Of a DNA stretch of 7,254 bases, positions 1 to 7,254 are shown piece by piece. The DNA is taken from NCBI GenBank assembly GCA_024278345.1, contig JAJRTK010000372.1:1-7254 (forward strand), in the 5' to 3' direction. The stretch's first letter is position 1. Each line of letters starts with the position of its first letter. The notes under the pieces are model-generated. The model had not been told where the DNA came from. It searched no databases and saw only the letters and a program-made list of their open reading frames with translations. Origin of the DNA: a bacterium. GTDB lineage: Bacteria; CSSED10-310; JAJRTK01. Position numbers and translations under genes: made by a program.

Positions 1-326
1 CCCACGATGCTTGCTCCAAACGAGCTCAACCCCCGGTAGGAAAAATTTAGAGCATCGGCAATGGCCACGAAGGGCGCCAAAAGAAAGAAAAAGAGTGGCG
101 GATAGGAGTTGGGGAACAGGTGACCGAAAATGTCCAGCCGAACAGAGTAAATCTCCTGGGGCCGGCCCTCCAGAATCAGGCGAGCCGTGGGTACCCAGAA
201 GTCGGCCAGATCGTTGAACGGCAAGGAGGCTTTGACAGCACTGGCCGCCAGTAGATAGGCAATGGCGGCAGTCAGCAAGAGCCAAACCTCCAGCACAGGA
301 CCTTTGTCAACCCTTTTTCCATTCAT
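1..326 (-). CDS. Partial membrane glycosyltransferase-like protein (GT87/DUF2029-like), N-terminal part
   Basis: An open frame on the minus strand runs from an ATG at 326 to the left edge without a stop, giving 108 codons; the C-terminus lies outside the window. The peptide begins MNGKRVDKGPVLEVW and enters a hydrophobic helix (LLLTAAIAYLLAASAV, about residues 16-31). A polar stretch follows with NDLADFWVPTARLILEGRP and an IYSVRLDIFGHLFPNSYPP segment, then a second hydrophobic helix (LFFFLLAPFVAIADAL). The pattern helix / D-x-F-x-x-x-A-R-x-x-x-x-G-x-P-x-x-x-Y / YPP / helix is what I recall for the N-terminus of GT87 (DUF2029) GT-C polyprenol-phosphate-mannose-type transferases, which add sugars outside the cytoplasmic membrane. 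A second in-frame ATG lies at 338, and an in-frame TGA at 357-359 closes the frame upstream. Neither start has a strong Shine-Dalgarno. The gene diverges from thiI. The membrane-protein call is firm; the GT87 assignment is moderate because only the N-terminus is visible. Confidence 0.72.
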   Translation of the reverse strand, partial: MNGKRVDKGPVLEVWLLLTAAIAYLLAASAVKASLPFNDLADFWVPTARLILEGRPQEIYSVRLDIFGHLFPNSYPPLFFFLLAPFVAIADALNFSYRGLSSFGASIV

Positions 327-425
327 CGCAAGGCCCATTCCATCCACGCCGGTCGGTCACCAGCGCCTTCTTCCAAGGGGCACCATTCTTCCGCGAACGT
401 TTCTGCTTTCCTTGAACGCCTTCTT

Positions 426-519
426 TTCTTTGGGTTGCGTTCCGCTCGCGGCGGCGGCAATCCGTCCGCCGCCACTCGCCTTCGGCACGAGTTCCCCCCG
501 TCCGCCGCCACTCGCCTTC
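426..519 (+). repeat. Dispersed hairpin repeat, copy A
   Basis: This is the longest of three related intergenic copies (the others are at 3211-3288, inverted, and 4031-4085). It opens with TTCTTTGGGTTG (426-437), followed by CCGCTCGC (442-449). Next is a GC palindrome: GGCGGCGG at 450-457, an 8-nt loop, and CCGCCGCC at 466-473. A 22-bp unit at 462-483 (CCGTCCGCCGCCACTCGCCT plus TC) recurs exactly at 498-519. Between the two units lies GGCACGAGTTCCCC, which is shared with copy B. It occupies the divergent intergenic space between the glycosyltransferase-like gene and thiI. No protein or known RNA family is recognised in it. The rest of the 339-581 gap shows no gene I can support. Confidence 0.72.
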
Positions 520-581
520 TCATCGCCCTTCACTCGATCCCCCTTCCCGTGGAAGCGCCGGGGCACCAGAAAGTAACCATC

Positions 582-1856
582 ATGCCCATGGACACGAAAA
601 CCAGCCCCCAAGAGGAGCTTCGCCCCCCGGTATCAGACGCCACTGGCGATTTTCCGGCCATGGCGGAAGGGGGCGAGGAACATTTGCTCATCTTGCGCGG
701 CGGCGAGTCAAACCTCAAGGGCGGCAACCGCCGGCGCTTCTTTTCCCAGTTGGAACGAAACGTTCGCCGGGCCCTCCACGACTTGCCAGCGGGAGCACCG
801 CGCCGCTTGACGGGGAGGATCGTCGTGCCCCTTTCCGGCGCCGAGTGTTGGCCCGAGATCCGCCAAAGAGTCGCCAAACTCTATGGCATTGAAAACTTTT
901 CCCTTGGGCACCCAGCACATCGGAGCCTTGAGGGAATCTGCCAGACCATCGAACGGCACTGGCCCCATGGCATGCAGGGCTCGTTCTTGGTCCGCTGTCG
1001 CCGCGGAGACAAGAAATTCCCTCTCAAGTCACCCCAGATCGAGCGCGAAGTCGGCGGTTTCATTCACCAAAAGTGGGGGCTGCCGGTGGATCTTCGAAAC
1101 CCGGAGACGACCATTCGCGTCGAAATCTTGCCCAACGTTGCGTACGTCTCTTTCGGCATACTCCAAGGGGCTGGAGGTTTGCCCACGGGAACTTCCGGTC
1201 GCCTCGTTGTCCTCTTCTCTGGCGGAATCGACTCCCCCGTGGCAGCCGCCCGCCTCCAGCGGCGAGGGGTCACCGTGGAGCTCGTCCACTTCAGCGGGCG
1301 GCCTTTCCAGGACCGAAGGTCGGAGCGGAAAGCCAAGAAGCTGGCCCGGGTCTTGGCGCGATCCCAGATGCGCTTGAACCTGTGGCTGGTCCCCTTTGGC
1401 GAGGTTCAACGGCGAATCGTCGTGGCATCCCGCCCGGCATTGCGCGTCTTGCTCTACCGCCGTCTCATGCTTCGCATCGCCCGCAAGCTTGCCTGGAAAT
1501 GCGATGCGCCGGCCGTGGCCACGGGCGGCAGCATGGGGCAGGTCGCCTCACAGACTCTCCAAAATCTCGTGGCCATCGACGACGCGGTCCAGGGCCCGGT
1601 CTTCCGGCCACTCATCGGAATGGACAAACAAGAGATCATCGACGAGGCCAGAAAGCTCGGAACCTACGATATCTCCATCCTTCCCGATGGCGATTGCTGC
1701 CAGCTCTTTGCCCCCAAGAAGGGTTCCGAACTGGCCGTCACCATCGCCGAAATCCGGCGAGCCGAAGAAGGACTCGACATCGAAGACCTCGTCATGATAG
1801 CCCTTGCCGGCGCCACAGTGGAACGATTCCGCCTTCCGGGTGCGGCCTCCGACTAG
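582..1856 (+). CDS. thiI: tRNA 4-thiouridine synthetase ThiI (no rhodanese domain)
   Basis: This 424-residue cytoplasmic enzyme should adenylate U8 of tRNA with ATP and thiolate it to s4U using sulfur relayed from a cysteine desulfurase; in some bacteria ThiI also supplies sulfur for thiazole synthesis. The N-terminal ferredoxin-like part carries the ThiI opening pattern ILRGGESNLKGGNRRRFF (residues 37-54). A THUMP domain spans about 100-190. The PP-loop ATPase follows, with SGGIDSPVAA at 213-222, TGGSMGQVASQTLQNL at 314-329, FRPLIGMDKQEII at 341-353 and DCCQLFAPK at 371-379. The DCC region corresponds to the catalytic-cysteine position of the family. The protein ends soon after, so the C-terminal rhodanese domain of the E. 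coli type (482 residues) is absent, as in the B. subtilis type. The ATG at 582 was chosen because the frame upstream runs through the repeat; ATGs at 588 and 660 are alternatives, and none has a good Shine-Dalgarno. About 33 residues precede the conserved core. TGGS replaces the usual TGES/TGDS. Confidence 0.95.
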   Translation: MPMDTKTSPQEELRPPVSDATGDFPAMAEGGEEHLLILRGGESNLKGGNRRRFFSQLERNVRRALHDLPAGAPRRLTGRIVVPLSGAECWPEIRQRVAKLYGIENFSLGHPAHRSLEGICQTIERHWPHGMQGSFLVRCRRGDKKFPLKSPQIEREVGGFIHQKWGLPVDLRNPETTIRVEILPNVAYVSFGILQGAGGLPTGTSGRLVVLFSGGIDSPVAAARLQRRGVTVELVHFSGRPFQDRRSERKAKKLARVLARSQMRLNLWLVPFGEVQRRIVVASRPALRVLLYRRLMLRIARKLAWKCDAPAVATGGSMGQVASQTLQNLVAIDDAVQGPVFRPLIGMDKQEIIDEARKLGTYDISILPDGDCCQLFAPKKGSELAVTIAEIRRAEEGLDIEDLVMIALAGATVERFRLPGAASD

Positions 1857-2992
1857 GAGGAAAAGCAGAAGCCCTTGTCATGGCTCTCGATCTGGGCCAC
1901 AACCTCCGATGGCGAGTCGGTGAGGGCCAGGCAACTGGCGTACCTCCGGCCTTGGGCGAGCTTTGTCAAAAGCGGGTAGACTGGCTTTGTGTGTGTCCAG
2001 TAGCTTTTTCCAAAGAAGATCATGGGACTCGGCGGCCCCAGCGATTCATAATGATTCTGGGTGGCATCCTGGAAGATCTCCTGGATCGTGCCGGCGCTTC
2101 CAGGGGCGAAGATGATGCCGGCTGTGGCGATGCTCACCAGTTGATCTTCCCGGAAGCTGTTGGCAAAAAGCTTGGCGATTTGGGTTGCGAAAATCGCTGG
2201 CGGTTCATGGCCAAAGAGCCAGGTGGGAATGCCTAGGCTGGCGCAGTCTTCATCCACGTGGCGAAGAGGAAAGGCCCGCGCCACCTCAAAGGCCGCGTCA
2301 TACCAAGCCTCCACGGGCGTGAAGAGAGGGGCATGGGCCAGGATTCGGATCGCCTCCTCAAGCTCGGCATCCCTCCTTGAGGCAAACCAGGCTCCCAGAT
2401 GCGTCGCCTCCATGGCTCCGGGGCCGCCACCGCTCACCATGAAAAAACCACGGCGCGTAAGATCCCGTGACAATGCGGCAACCTGAGCGTAGTCATCGTG
2501 CCCTCGCGCCATGGCGTGCCCACCCATGATGGCCACCACCATCCGGCCTTCCAGCGCTTCCTCCAGGGCATCGGAAATCGCGTGATCGTGGAGCCAGCGC
2601 CCCAAAGATTCCAAAATCGACGGGGGCTTGATGCCGCCAGTCTTCTTGTAATGGGCGTAAATCCGACCGTCGAGAGTCTTCCCATAACTGCCGGGAACCC
2701 CCGGCTCGTACCCGCCCAGAAGCTCTTCCGGAGTGTACAGGGCCCCTCGATAGGGCTTGTACGGCAGGCCGGGGATTCGCGGGAAGAGCAAAACATCGGA
2801 TCTGCCGAGATGCTCGTACGCCTCCGGACTCAGCGTACAGCCCAAAAAAACAGAGTTCCCACCGGGCAAACGAAGCAGATCCGCCGTCAAGCCCAGGAGA
2901 TTGAGCCCCTGGAAGACCGCATTGGCAAACGTACCGCCCTGGGAAAGATGTTCTTCTACGGCCTCAACCGTCTCGAATTCCCGACGAACCAT
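1853..2992 (-). CDS. LOG/TIGR00730-like Rossmann-fold nucleotide-binding protein, long form
   Basis: This is a 379-residue cytoplasmic protein. LOG-type proteins (once annotated as lysine decarboxylases) typically hydrolyse nucleoside 5'-monophosphates to base plus ribose phosphate; the substrate of this long subfamily is not evident here. An N-terminal domain of about 150 residues includes ETVEAVEEHLSQGG and SVFLGCTLSPEA. The Rossmann core follows: IMGGHAMARG at 155-164, SGGGPGAMEATHLGA at 187-201, GIPTWLFGHEPP at 254-265, and FAPGSAGTIQEIFQDATQNH at 295-314. The last is the family's PGGxGTxxE motif with the second Gly replaced by Ser, as in the long subfamily I recall from actinobacteria, where PGAAGT is usual. 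The ATG at 2992 is preferred because GGAGA lies 8 nt upstream and the conserved N-terminus begins at once. The frame stays open to another ATG at 3073 (27 extra, low-homology-looking residues) that lacks a ribosome site. The gene is convergent with thiI, overlapping it by 4 bp. Confidence 0.9.
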   Translation of the reverse strand: MVRREFETVEAVEEHLSQGGTFANAVFQGLNLLGLTADLLRLPGGNSVFLGCTLSPEAYEHLGRSDVLLFPRIPGLPYKPYRGALYTPEELLGGYEPGVPGSYGKTLDGRIYAHYKKTGGIKPPSILESLGRWLHDHAISDALEEALEGRMVVAIMGGHAMARGHDDYAQVAALSRDLTRRGFFMVSGGGPGAMEATHLGAWFASRRDAELEEAIRILAHAPLFTPVEAWYDAAFEVARAFPLRHVDEDCASLGIPTWLFGHEPPAIFATQIAKLFANSFREDQLVSIATAGIIFAPGSAGTIQEIFQDATQNHYESLGPPSPMIFFGKSYWTHTKPVYPLLTKLAQGRRYASCLALTDSPSEVVAQIESHDKGFCFSS

Positions 2993-3000
2993 ACGCTTCT

Positions 3001-3005
3001 TCTCC
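3001..3005 (-). promoter_or_regulatory. Shine-Dalgarno site deciding the LOG-family start
   Basis: On the minus strand GGAGA, within GTGGAGAAGAAGCGT, sits 8 nt before the ATG at 2992. The longer in-frame start at 3073 is preceded by AGCATCGGTGA, which has no comparable purine-rich site. This supports 2992 as the translation start. Confidence 0.6.
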
Positions 3006-3034
3006 ACGGAACTTGGAACTCGCCTCTCCCAGCA

Positions 3035-3071
3035 TTTTCCCCAGAGGGAAAACGATCGGCCTTTTCCGGCC
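3035..3071 (-). promoter_or_regulatory. Mutually exclusive short hairpins in the LOG-gene leader
   Basis: If translation starts at 2992, this stretch is untranslated leader. TTTTCCC (3035-3041) can pair with GGGAAAA (3046-3052) across the 4-nt loop CAGA. The same GGAAAA arm (3047-3052) can instead pair with TTTTCC (3062-3067). The latter is itself the loop of a GGCC-TTTTCC-GGCC hairpin (3058-3071). Alternative pairings of one arm can occur in attenuators, but no U-tract terminator follows and no known riboswitch consensus is seen. The structure is visible; the regulatory role is speculation. Confidence 0.25.
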
Positions 3072-3210
3072 ATTCACCGATGCTAGGCTATCTGAAAATA
3101 CCCATCCTGTCATCTGATGATCCGGCTTCTTGGCCGCGATAAAAATCTTGTGGCAGCAGATTTCGGTGGTGCTCCAGCCCTAGGGCAATGGATCGAAGGC
3201 GGCGACAATG

Positions 3211-3288
3211 GCGAGGAACGGGCGCCGCGGGGAACTCGTGCCAAGGGCACGGGTCGATACCGATGCGAGCGGGACGTAACGCAAAGAA
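3211..3288 (-). repeat. Dispersed hairpin repeat, copy B (inverted)
   Basis: Read on the minus strand, this copy starts TTCTTTGCGTTACG, continues CCCGCTCGC, and has the later block CCTTGGCACGAGTTCCCC that matches copy A. Its central palindrome differs in sequence from A and C but still folds: GCACGGGT (3247-3254) pairs with ACCGATGC (3259-3266) around CGAT, with one mismatch and one wobble. It lies between the LOG-family gene and the YfbK_C relic, 85 bp before the relic's broken 5' end. Apart from this copy and the hairpins described separately, the gap 2993-3373 holds no gene I can support. Confidence 0.65.
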
Positions 3289-3373
3289 AATAAAAGGTGT
3301 TTCGCCAATTATGCCCTAAAAGAAGAGCACGACCCCACGTTTCTGGATAGTCTAATTGTTGCAGCATTAAAGC

Positions 3374-3976
3374 GTGGAGCAGATGAACTCCACCCTCATC
3401 ACCATCGCCAAGGACATCAAGCTCCAGATCCGGTTCAATCCGGCTTCCGTCCAGTCGTTCCGCCTGTTGGGCTACGAAAACCGGCGCCTCCAAAAGGAAG
3501 ATTTCAACGACGACACCGTCGATGCCGGAGAGATCGGAGCGGGTCATGGAGTGACCGCCCTTTACGAGATCGTTTCTCCACCCGGTGCATTGCCGGCCCG
3601 GGAGTCTGGTCATGGAAGCGGCACCCCGCCAAGCTTGGGTTTACCGGGAAAAGAACTCTTGACCCTGGAGATCCGTTACAAAGAGCCCGAAGGAGTGCGC
3701 AGCCGCCTGCTGAGGTTTGCCGCGTACGACCGTGGGGGCAGATACCAGGCGGCTTCGGCCGATTTCAAGTTTGCCGCCGCCGTGGCGGGGCTTGGGATGC
3801 TTCTCAGAAATTCCAAATATAAGGGCCACACGACGTTCAAGCTGGTGCGAAGCCTTGCAAAGCAGGGGCTTGAAACCGATGAACCAGGCTATCGGAAGGA
3901 GTTTGCGCGGCTGGTCAAAAAGGCCGAAAAACTGGTAAAAAAACGGCGGCCAAAGGTTCATGAGGCGGGCTTGTAG
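3374..3976 (+). pseudogene. 5'-truncated YfbK-type von Willebrand factor A protein: C-terminal domain only
   Basis: The 200-codon frame encodes what I recognise as the C-terminal domain (YfbK_C, formerly DUF3520) of YfbK-like VWA proteins, which are normally about 500-600 residues with an N-terminal vWF_A region before it. Diagnostic stretches are EQMNSTLITIAKDIKLQIRF (residues 2-21), FRLLGYENRRLQKEDFNDD, DAGEIGAGHGVTALYEIV, LTLEIRYKEPEGVRSRLL, and ASADFKFAAAVAGLGMLLR. The C-terminus looks complete, ending in a lysine-rich tail. In family members the sequence before EQM continues into the VWA domain. Here in-frame stops lie at 3368-3370 and 3353-3355, and no VWA motif (DxSxS) occurs upstream in any frame. 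The apparent GTG start has no ribosome site; GGAG lies only 3 nt before the ATG at 3383. I read it as a deletion relic. A functional stand-alone domain is possible because the remaining frame is intact over 200 codons. Copies B and C of the repeat flank it. Confidence 0.75.
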
Positions 3977-4030
3977 AGCCACGCCCACGGGTATCGCCCC
4001 TTCCCGGTGAGAGCCTGCGCCCGCTCTTCC

Positions 4031-4085
4031 TTCTTTGGGTTGTACTCCGCTCGCATCGGCGGCGGTCCCACCGCCGCTACTCGCC
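4031..4085 (+). repeat. Dispersed hairpin repeat, copy C
   Basis: This copy aligns without gaps to the first 55 bp of copy A: TTCTTTGGGTTG (4031-4042), then TCCGCTCGC (4046-4054), a palindrome, and ACTCGCC (4079-4085). The palindrome is GCGGCGGT (4059-4066), a 3-nt loop CCC, and ACCGCCGC (4070-4077), a perfect 8-bp stem. It sits in the 160-bp gap between the convergent YfbK_C relic and the beta-helix protein gene. It could in principle act as a transcription barrier there, but no T-run follows on either strand. Confidence 0.7.
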
Positions 4086-4136
4086 TCTTCGCTCCAATTC
4101 GGGTTCGATCCCTCCATATTCGGCAACGTCGGGATG

Positions 4137-6998
4137 TCAAGTCCGGCGCACTCCACGGCGTCTTCGGAGGATCAGGCCCACTCCCATGCCCGGGATGAGA
4201 ATCGTCAGGAAAAAGGGAAACCAGGCCGGCACGAATTCACTAAAGGGCCGGTAATGGCGCTCTCCCCAAGCACCGCCCATGGAACCTATGTCGTTGTCCG
4301 TTCCGTCGATGTCCAGGCCACCGTAAAGCTGGCGGTTATCACCGCCGTCCAGAATGTCGGAGTAGTTCGTGGGAGCCAGAAGATCGATGAGGTAAGAGTC
4401 CGGCTCCAGAAGGACCGCCTGGCGCTCCACCATCCGCTGGTTTTGGTACGCGCCATTCTCCGCGCAGGGCTTCCACCCCTCGGGAAACAGGTTCCACTCC
4501 AGGGTCGGGATCCGGCCCGTATCCACCGACCAGACGTAGAGGTCGCAGGGCTGGCCCAGGGAAACGTTATTCACCATCATCGGTCGTGCGTGCCGCGTGC
4601 GGATCGCGGCGACGGATTGCCCGATGAAGGTGTTGTTATGAAGGATGGAAGAAGAGGAAACCGAGTCATTGATCTCGATGCCCACGGAGTTCTGCCGGAG
4701 AAGGCAATTGCTGATGATGGCGCTGGAACCGTAAAGCTGGATCGCGGCGCTGTCCAAAAGTGAACCGGCTCCGAACCCCTCGATGGTGAGGCGGCGAATC
4801 ACGGTTCCCGCGGAACCGGGAACGAGCTTGAACCCCACTTTTTGCCCACCTCCGGGTCGGACTATGCAGCCTAGAATGCTTTCGCCGATGATGGTCAGCG
4901 GCCGATCGATGGTGAGGTTCCCGTCGTAGTAGCTTGGAACGACATTGTCGTTGCCGTCAGTTTCCACCTGCACGATAATCGTCGAGCCGGCCACCACTTC
5001 CTGCCGGGAGAGGCCATAGGATATCTGGCGCCAGGGCTGGGAGATGGAGCCGTCGCGCCCCGCGACATCACGCCCTGAAGGATGGACGTAGAAGATGCCG
5101 GGAAGGACGGCGGTGACATCGACGGTATCGGCTCCAGTGATGGTTGGATTGTCCACGTCGAAGACGCGAATGGTGTGGGTTCCCGGGCGAAAGGCCGTGA
5201 TGCCGTCTTCCTTGGGAAAGAAGCGGTGTCCCCCGTCGCTGGCCGCAAACGCATAGGGTCCGGGGCGGAACATACCGTGATCCGTGGAGTCGAAAGCGAC
5301 GGTACCGCGGTAATAGGGGACAATCCGGTTGTTCCCGTCGATGGCGGTTACGTCCAGGGATGCCTGGTTGTTGGTGAGATCGAAGCCGATGACCAGGGAG
5401 GTGGGATTGATGGTCAGAAGAAGCTTCTTGACGGGCCCGGGAGTGGGAGTGGCAGTCAAGGTGGGTGTGTTGGTGGGAACGCCCGTTGGTTGCGGTGTAT
5501 CGGTGGGCGGGACAGGAGTCTTGGTGGGGGTCTTGGTCTTGATGGGAGTCCTGGTTCGGGTCCACGTGGGAGTGGGAGTGCGGGTCACGGTTCGGGTGAA
5601 GGTCTGAGTTGGACTATTCGTGGGGGTGGGAGTCCGCGTCGAGGTTGGCGTATTGGTGGCCGTGGCGGTCTTCGTCCGCGTGGGGGTTGGCGAGTTGACG
5701 GGGGTGGCCGTCCTCGTGGGCGTGTGGGTCCGCGTAGGAGTATTCGTTGGCGTGTTGGTCGGTGTGTTCGTCCGCGTGGCGGTATTTGTCGGCGTATGGC
5801 TCGGTGTGCTTGTCCGTGTAGCGGTTTTCGTTGGCGTGTTGGTCGGTGTGTTCGTCCGCGTGGCGGTATTTGTCGGCGTATGGCTCGGTGTGCGCGTGGG
5901 CGTGATGGTATTCGTCGGTGTGTTGGTCGGTGTGTCCGTGGAAGTCGCCGTCATCGTCGGAGTCGCCGTCATCGTCGGAGTCGCCGTTGCTGTCGGGGTA
6001 TCCGTTAACGTAGGAGTCGCCGTGGTTGTCGGAGTGTCTGTGATTGTCGGTGTTGCTGTTACCGTGGGCGTGAGCGTCGGCGTGGGCGTGAGCGTCGGCG
6101 TGGGCGTGGGATTGTCGTCCAAAAGGATGAGGATTTCGGCTTTGTCGGCGAGTTTTGTGCCTCCGGCCTTGAACTTGGGTTTCAGGCTGTACCACCAACC
6201 ACCAGTGCCTGCTCCCGTGAGGTCGAAATCCATCCTGAATTTCTTGGTTGATACGCGACTCACATTTGTGGGGACGGCGTTGTAGAGGTCCGTGTTTGCG
6301 TAGCCCGTTGCGTAGTCCGTCAGGACAAAGCGCGATGAGCCATTCGGCGAACCGTCCGTAAAGAAGTTGCTGAAAACCTCGATGTAAACGGTTCCGTTGA
6401 GGGGAAAGGTGTCGCACTCCCAACTGTAGCCCGTGTCGCAGAACGTCTTGATGTAATTGGCGGGACTCACCGACCCTACCCGCAATGAGACGCCCTTGAC
6501 TTCGTACTGGCTGGTACCGTCGTCGATTTTGCCTTCGAAAGTGTAGGTCTGGTCCGTGGTATTTGGCGTTCTGAACCAAGCCCGATAGAGATAGGGGGAG
6601 ATCGCCGAAGCCTGGTACCAGGGTTGCTTATTGTAGCCGCCGACGGCTGCTCCCCCCAAGTTCAGGACACTCCATTCGTTCTTGTTGCTGAAATCGATGA
6701 CACGGGTGGTGGTGGCCTCGACACAATAGGTGGCATTGGGATCCAGGAGCGCGGTCTGGGGATAAACTTCTGTCGCGCTCGGCGTGCAGTCAGGATAATT
6801 GGGATCGTTGGGATCGGACACGCTACTGGGAACATAAAGAGCGATGCTCTCAGATTGGTTGGCGCTGACTTCGGGGTAGTCGGCAAAGGCCGGGGAATTC
6901 AGGAAGAGAAGCCCGGTCAGTCCGGTGAAAAGCCCGAGGCGTTTTCCATGGCCGGTGGCCTTAACGAACAGTTCCCTGAATCGTTTAAACTGGTTCAT
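4137..6998 (-). CDS. Large secreted modular protein: signal peptide, Thr/Pro linker, Ig-like domain, right-handed beta-helix, C-terminal anchor
   Basis: The protein has 953 residues. The ATG at 6998 follows AGGGA at 7-nt spacing and starts a signal peptide (basic [10 protein letters not shown]..., core [16 protein letters not shown], likely cleavage after AFA at 39). The frame is open further to 7103, but that adds non-signal sequence. Residues 40-295 form an unrecognised domain with four cysteines (71, 92, 187, 195), many aromatic residues and alternating strands. Residues 297-522 are a Thr/Pro repeat. Residues 523-634 look like a bacterial Ig-like domain ([32 protein letters not shown]). 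Residues from about 635 to 920 resemble a DUF1565/pectate-lyase-like right-handed beta-helix: [60 protein letters not shown], and an [13 protein letters not shown] end. The C-terminus is a hydrophobic segment (926-944) followed by [10 protein letters not shown] infer an exported surface or extracellular protein held or sorted by that tail, perhaps an adhesin or polysaccharide-binding or -cleaving protein; no catalytic residues were identified. Confidence 0.88.
5433..6110 (-). repeat. Low-complexity Thr/Pro coding repeat (226-residue linker)
   Basis: This part of the large secreted protein alternates ACN and CCN codons, with every second residue Thr and frequent Pro. Sub-patterns are [30 protein letters not shown] and [12 protein letters not shown]. 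Such linkers are extended, flexible spacers that separate domains and are common O-glycosylation targets in exported bacterial proteins. Basic residues (R, K, H) concentrate in the C-terminal two-thirds. Antisense reading gives Val/Gly-rich open frames that are only a by-product. Confidence 0.9.
5743..5893 (-). repeat. 67-bp perfect direct repeat, 84-bp period, inside the Thr/Pro linker
   Basis: The 67 bp at 5743-5809 recur exactly at 5827-5893, so the unit is 84 bp or 28 codons. The protein shows [20 protein letters not shown] twice. Identity at synonymous positions implies a recent duplication or gene-conversion event rather than selection on the protein alone. Confidence 0.85.
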
Positions 6999-7005
6999 GG
7001 CTTCG

Positions 7006-7010
7006 TCCCT
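7006..7010 (-). promoter_or_regulatory. Shine-Dalgarno of the secreted protein, inside a small hairpin
   Basis: AGGGA on the minus strand lies 7 nt before the ATG at 6998. Its AGGG is part of CCCTG-AA-CAGGG (7007-7018), a 5-bp stem with a tight loop, which could partly mask the site. The leader further upstream (7020-7100) is AT-rich with a T-tract, but I see no promoter I would defend. Confidence 0.4.
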
Positions 7011-7167
7011 GTTCAGGGTCTTGCCCGGTAAGGCAAAGAAAAAAATTGGAAGCGTTAGATTTCTAAATGGGTTGATTTCTGGAGTCACCGATTTGCCAAT
7101 CAAAACCGAAACTAGGCCTCGGTCATGGTACCGGCCACGGTTCAGATTTCAGACGCCGCCCCGGGGC

Positions 7168-7254
7168 TTCCAGCCCTGGAACCCGGCGGAGGCTCCGCCT
7201 CCGGACCTCCGCTGGGAGCGCCGCTCCCAGACCCACGCCAGGGAGCCAGCTCCC
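7168..7254. repeat. Array of consecutive perfect palindromes at the right edge
   Basis: Four palindromes follow one another. They are TTCCAG-CC-CTGGAA (7168-7181), GGCGGAG-G-CTCCGCC (7185-7199, overlapping an alternative CGGAGG/CCTCCG at 7187-7203), CTGGGAGCG-C-CGCTCCCAG (7212-7230), and GGGAGC-CA-GCTCCC (7241-7254). The last two share the GGGAGC/GCTCCC arm. No T-tract follows on either strand, so a simple intrinsic terminator is unlikely. The array lies upstream of the secreted protein gene and is cut by the window edge. A REP-like extragenic palindrome cluster is the simplest reading. Confidence 0.6.

Follow-up and report, generated by a model that had tools for sequence, protein, structure and literature searches.

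A miniature inverted-repeat transposable element family with 8-bp target duplications and a central hairpin conserved on one strand

Three copies of an intergenic, palindrome-bearing repeat lie in a 7,254-nucleotide stretch of bacterial DNA (GTDB lineage Bacteria; CSSED10-310; JAJRTK01; assembly GCA_024278345.1, contig JAJRTK010000372.1, positions 1 to 7,254, forward strand; hereafter the window), raising the question of what kind of element placed them there and why a hairpin should be kept while its sequence changes. A preliminary description of the window had proposed a mobile element of the repetitive extragenic palindrome (REP) or miniature inverted-repeat transposable element (MITE) kind, a structured RNA, or a nucleoid or transcription-boundary element. 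The best overall explanation, and one considered likely, is a MITE that duplicates 8 bp of its target and carries a central hairpin maintained as a single-strand structure; the family is new and very abundant.

The left flank TTTGSGTTRNNNYCCGCTCGC (up to 3 mismatches) matches the window at exactly three places, against 0.07 in shuffled sequence, and all three copies were thereby confirmed where first described. Across the window's own genome (6.06 Mb in 550 contigs, 88% complete) the flank pattern has 611 matches, against 20 for the reversed pattern, and a profile of the core retrieved 240 copies from the first 1.66 Mb sampled in detail and none from the same DNA reversed, reaching 274 copies in 1.85 Mb (∼30% of the genome) after more contigs were added; copies were gathered by sequence profile, the fold playing no part in finding them. 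Scaling to the whole genome gives ∼790 copies, or ∼930 from contigs picked regardless of matches, in line with the many copies that had been predicted. The intergenic location likewise holds, for 255 of the 274 cores overlap no gene predicted by a simple codon-based method, in sampled sequence of which 78% is coding. Among 97 other genomes (seven from the same phylum, the closest relatives covered), the flank pattern found no relative beyond chance level, and a covariance model, scoring 59 candidates per genome and so not a copy count, gave one weak match in an unrelated genome; viral contigs, plasmids and phages yielded only chance-level matches, and a BLAST search with the second copy of the window (copy B, 3165-3334) picked up ∼40 relatives within its own genome, whereas 10 further named genomes gave no relative. 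The element is known so far from one bacterial genome only, the closest genomes compared being of the same phylum.

Intact elements measure ∼146-150 bp, with a long form of ∼170 bp (146-174 bp between ends), and no gene is predicted within them. Alignment of well-kept copies defines imperfect terminal inverted repeats of 22 bp, left GGTCGTGCTCTTCTTTTAGGGC and right GCCCTAAAACCGGAGCACCACC, with GG as their first letters and AGGG occupying positions 18-21. Genome-wide, the left terminal repeat (pattern GGTSGTGCTCTTSNTTTAGGGC, up to 3 mismatches) occurs in 77 copies, against 1 control match; 23 are identical to the letter, indicating that part of the family is young. Immediately outside the ends, 8-bp direct repeats match at 7 or more of 8 positions in 14 of the 42 good-ended copies, where 0.32 were expected when the left flank of one copy was paired with the right flank of another, a result reached in none of 20,000 permutations (p<1/20,000); lengths of 4-7 and 9-11 bp gave no signal comparable to that at 8. 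Examples include CGGATTTT at locus L200, CGAATTCT at L197, CAAAGTCG at L190 and GATCTTCT at L096, with a further exact duplication, AAAAATTG, at L199, and the insertion target is AT-centred and loosely palindromic, near SGAATTCS. The terminal inverted repeats together with target duplications of fixed length strongly support a MITE, a DNA transposon that is not autonomous and depends on a DDE-type transposase for its movement, and thus bear out the MITE-like mobility first suggested.

A trans-acting DDE transposase, most likely of the IS1595 type, would cut at the GG ends, and insertion into AT-centred SGAATTCS-like sites would then duplicate 8 bp. Pieces of IS1595-family transposases occur in the genome with 26-27-bp ends, GGCTCTATATGCGATCCAGGGATCTRG, in which the initial GG of the MITE ends and their AGGG at 18-21 both recur; the IS1595 family usually makes 8-bp duplications and GG termini mark the Merlin/IS1016 group (PMC8101967), and one studied IS1595-family member favours AT-rich 8-bp sites (PMC12561309). 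From these sequence features the IS1595 type appears to be the best candidate for the parent transposase. A left terminal repeat beside an IS1595 fragment (contig C322) was dropped as the insertion sequence's own end once intact ends had been found on other contigs. ISL3 elements also give 8-bp duplications; that family was set aside as the partner, the end GGCTCTTCGCCATC... of the resident ISL3 fragments mismatching the MITE ends. No IS256 transposase was found in the genome, and a DDE_Tnp_1 transposase, present as a single fragment, was likewise set aside.

At the centre of the element lies a core of 55-60 nt, consisting of Y-tract-TTTGKGTTGNNTTCCGCTC, a hairpin and CTCGCC, of which the folded strand reads GGCGAG-YRGC-hairpin-GAGCGGAA. 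In a gap-free alignment of 169 distinct short-form cores, 163 have G-C or A-T as the foot pair (columns 22-45), and stem pairs switch among G-C, C-G and A-T. Against a tree-aware null, in which the inferred substitutions were replayed along the tree with pairing ignored, covariation is significant for pairs 22-45, 27-40 and 28-39 (E = 0.000, 0.013 and 0.020); in an alignment of 47 sequences, 89.8% of cells are paired and covariation scores 0.50, a value that falls to 0.134 or less when the partners are slid. The proposed retention of the hairpin under a changing sequence is therefore upheld on 169 distinct cores, three pairs reaching E≤0.02 in this covariation test.

The fold is held on one strand. 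Where a Watson-Crick pair changes to a G.T wobble, the wobble lies on the reverse strand in ∼31.6 events and on the forward one in ∼3.0 (p=4e-7; parsimony counts on a tree from 53 columns, the numbers being approximate). Mutation bias was rejected as the cause of this asymmetry, unpaired columns being unbiased (G>A 44, C>T 46), as was a cruciform, which would treat both strands alike, so that the evidence points to a kept fold that is single-stranded, in either RNA or DNA. Conservation of the hairpin on one strand only is well supported; of the earlier suggestion of a structured RNA, the one-strand fold stands, and single-stranded DNA would give the same signal. An independent and immobile structured RNA family, cis-regulatory or a small RNA, spread by segmental duplication, would explain both the covariation and the one-strand bias, but is very improbable: it is largely refuted by the duplications, young copies having both 8-bp target duplications and terminal repeats, while the flanking genes are unrelated, no other genome searched yielded the family, and Rfam gave no plausible match in the window and one chance-level match elsewhere.

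Division of the copies by the state of their ends shows how far the core outlasts the rest of the element. G.T wobbles favour the folded strand by 13 to 2 in copies with ends and by 36 to 1 in copies without them, the latter being still paired. Among 41 both-ended copies, pairwise identity is 84-87% in the CCGCTC/CTCGCC flanks of the hairpin, 71-72% in the left terminal repeat and 48-69% in much of the spacers. A subfamily termed type C (36 copies in the test set) has the core, with terminal-repeat scores at background; these copies may be either old insertions whose cores have been kept by selection, or cases in which the core moves or forms alone. Many type C hairpins (among them L113 +, L081 -, L129 -) seem by eye to hold tandem G.A/A.G mismatches between Watson-Crick pairs, for example CGCGAAC-GGCC-GTGAGCG on the folded strand; tandem mismatches of this kind are a motif typical of folded single strands.

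A plain MITE, with a hairpin that has no host function and is paired either as a need of transposition or through correction of one arm by template switching, would be in keeping with the terminal repeats and 8-bp duplications, with the presence of one-sided wobbles in copies with ends, and with the lack of an orientation preference in those copies, as given below. It is nevertheless judged unlikely: template switching would not confine G.T to one strand of elements lying in both orientations, DDE transposases are not known to require an internal single-strand hairpin, and the core outlives the ends, still paired and with its wobbles still one-sided. For the preferred MITE with a single-strand hairpin, old copies would lose their ends as the core survives, and the hairpin would act in single-stranded form, most likely within RNA transcribed from neighbouring genes, where, by analogy with other bacterial MITEs, it could alter mRNA processing or stability. 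The fuller proposal, of a functional RNA or single-stranded DNA hairpin spread by a DNA transposon and kept by the host after the ends decay, is put forward tentatively, as a possibility that we regard as less than even.

The same one-strand conservation, together with type C copies devoid of terminal repeats, would also fit a core that began as a REP-type palindrome, which the genome's own REP-associated tyrosine transposase (RAYT) mobilised in single-stranded form and the MITE later captured, the one-sided wobbles then reflecting recognition of a single-stranded DNA hairpin. The search for a RAYT-like transposase proposed earlier found exactly one such gene in the whole genome (Y1_Tnp and REP_Tyr_transpos searches), scoring 67 bits with NCBIfam REP_Tyr_transpos (cut-off 80) and 30.1 with Pfam Y1_Tnp, above the cut-off of 23. 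A diverged type C core overlaps the 3' end of this gene (E = 5.9e-5 in that locus), so that the core may move or form by itself; on the other side of the gene no core was detected, and one adjoining copy among ∼900 is weak evidence. Inside the gene (L084 2524-3236, contig C390) lie two in-frame copies of a palindrome, GGGGCGGGTTCGGAACCCGCCCCTAC, which is of a different, GTAG-tagged type, counting against a link with the core, and has no copy elsewhere in the sequence examined. Full-length copies of the present element have 8-bp target duplications, a feature that REPs are not known to have. The GTAG tag occurs in only 24 of the 169 cores, the position reading G-Y-R-G with R pairing across the stem, and neighbours within 600 bp number 8 of 148, against ∼12 expected from density, leaving no excess of the close pairs that are usual for REPs (PMC3733652). 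By the criteria tested, tag, pair spacing and target duplication, the repeats are not a RAYT/REP element, which was rejected as the main explanation and with it the REP version of the first description; a RAYT origin for the core itself, before capture, is decidedly unlikely.

Position relative to genes offers a further view of the hairpin. Convergent, tandem and divergent gaps are occupied roughly in proportion: convergent gaps hold 35 of 215 copies and make up 105 of 711 intergenic gaps, and no T-run follows the hairpin on either strand. A terminator or gene-boundary reading was rejected on these two grounds, and the transcription-boundary role once considered is not indicated. In tandem-gene gaps the folded strand is sense in 75 copies and antisense in 52 (p=0.05), so that the check for strand bias returned a weak sense excess, made up of 22 versus 21 for copies with ends and 53 versus 31 for copies without. 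The pattern weakly suggests retention of sense copies, being one of several splits examined.

Several observations weigh against a MITE of IS1595 type with a host-kept hairpin. About 75% of copies are without clear terminal repeats, so that for these a shared transposition origin is inferred; only ∼8 of 22 positions are shared between the resident IS1595 ends and those of the MITE; the ∼30% of the genome examined yielded no autonomous element with the MITE ends; an ISL3-family fragment is also present in the genome; the target duplication of copy B is unrecognisable, 3 of 8 positions matching; and the sense-orientation bias is weak overall and absent in copies with ends.

Within the window itself (Table 1), copies A and C are of the short form, and copy B is of the long form, in which an additional inner stem makes up the true hairpin. 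The limits first given for the copies were too short, that of copy B extending outwards to both terminal inverted repeats, and the arms GCACGGGT/ACCGATGC cited there for copy B are not the counterparts of those in A and C; the particular compensatory example is lost, the general claim of a kept hairpin being sustained by the wider alignment. The RNA fold of the whole of copy B pairs its two ends (z = -3.1). In copy A (426-519) a second 3' half, this one of long-form type, follows the first CTCGCC, so that its sequence looks like a join of short and long forms.

Table 1. Coordinates of the repeat copies and their parts in the window
Feature	Position	Strand	Basis or remark
Copy B, full-length 170-bp long form bounded by terminal inverted repeats	3165..3334	-	Position weight matrix (PWM) end scores 30.5 and 24.6 bits
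Left terminal inverted repeat of copy B, GGTCGTGCTCTTCTTTTAGGGC	3313..3334	-	23 exact genome copies
Right terminal inverted repeat of copy B, GCCCTAGGGCTGGAGCACCACC (minus strand)	3165..3186	-	End alignment, PWM
Core left flank of copy B, TTTGCGTTACGTCCCGCTCGC	3265..3285	-	Flank pattern match
Inner long-form hairpin of copy B, ACTCGTGCC-AAG-GGCACGGGT (folded strand shown)	3234..3254	+	RNA fold
Core of copy A, short form	423..480	+	53.6 bits against core profile; terminal repeats are weak remnants only
Hairpin of copy A, GGCGGCGG/CCGCCGCC	450..473	+	Conserved fold belongs to reverse strand
Extra long-form 3' half joined to copy A, TTCGGCACGAGTTCCCCCCGTCCGCCGCCACTCGCCTTC	481..519	+	Sequence compared with long-form copies
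Core of copy C, short form	4028..4085	+	43.1 bits; terminal repeats undetectable
Hairpin of copy C, ATCGGCGGCGGTCCCACCGCCGCT	4055..4078	+	Core alignment

Two further repeats accompany the family in this genome. One, unrelated to it, consists of several stacked hairpins (CAGGGCTTCCAGCCCTGG, GGCGGAGG..CCTCCG, GGGAGCGCCGCTCCC) and has 45-48 copies in 1.85 Mb, with none in the reversed control; it was located at 7115-7254 of the window, at L208 320-520, at the end of L205, and in L067, L079, L085 and L087. A copy of it breaks up an ISL3 transposase gene (contig C5), and another is cut off by the end of the window's contig. The other, GGAACCTATCAGATCCGGTTTACAAGTCCACGC, is probably the end of another mobile element; 1.85 Mb contained 23 copies of it and the control none (located at L063 4163, L077 1562, L085 7184, L103 299, L106 6891, L126 inside a MITE end, and L084 3534), and it is once joined straight onto a broken MITE end. 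The genes of the window include one at 4137-7103 for a protein of 988 residues that matches nothing in Pfam and contains a long Thr/Pro-rich repeat, encoded by repeats around 5440-6110; ThiI, a SLOG-type protein and a YfbK-C-terminal-like protein are also encoded in the window, near the 988-residue protein.

Among known systems, the enterobacterial MITEs ERIC, RU-1 and YPAL resemble this family in being short, intergenic, bounded by imperfect terminal inverted repeats and foldable into a long hairpin; elements of this group are about 127 bp long and reach hundreds of copies in some genomes, with 711 in Photorhabdus luminescens (PMC10969869). No sequence relation to them was seen, and the present family differs in its 8-bp duplication, its separate central hairpin conserved on one strand and its core persisting without ends. 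The Correia/NEMIS elements of Neisseria are likewise numerous intergenic MITEs, with terminal repeats that can pair in mRNA and are RNase III sites (PMC10969869), whereas in the present family the centre and not the ends is best conserved. The IS1595 family (including IS1016) and its MITEs have the 8-bp duplication in common with the MITE here, and the IS1016/Merlin group has its GG termini (PMC8101967), although the resident IS1595 ends differ from its ends at most positions. The core resembles REPs and bacterial interspersed mosaic elements (BIMEs) with RAYT in being a small extragenic palindrome with hundreds of copies, one RAYT gene and a strand-specific hairpin, but differs from them in its rarely GTAG tag, the lack of a close-pair excess, and the longer element around it with terminal repeats and target duplication.

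The usual mark of a bacterial MITE is a pair of conserved ends enclosing a more variable interior. In this family the interior is conserved best, with a fold that independent compensatory changes hold on one strand and that outlives the ends. A REP-like palindrome can thus sit inside a larger transposon, and outer ends need checking before a REP is called. With ∼800-900 copies in one genome, the family lends itself naturally to the question of whether a bacterium acquired a ready-made RNA signal from a mobile element; if the hairpin is indeed kept by the host, hundreds of copies of one structured element would lie across the untranslated regions of a single genome, and selection would hold their fold on the transcribed strand.

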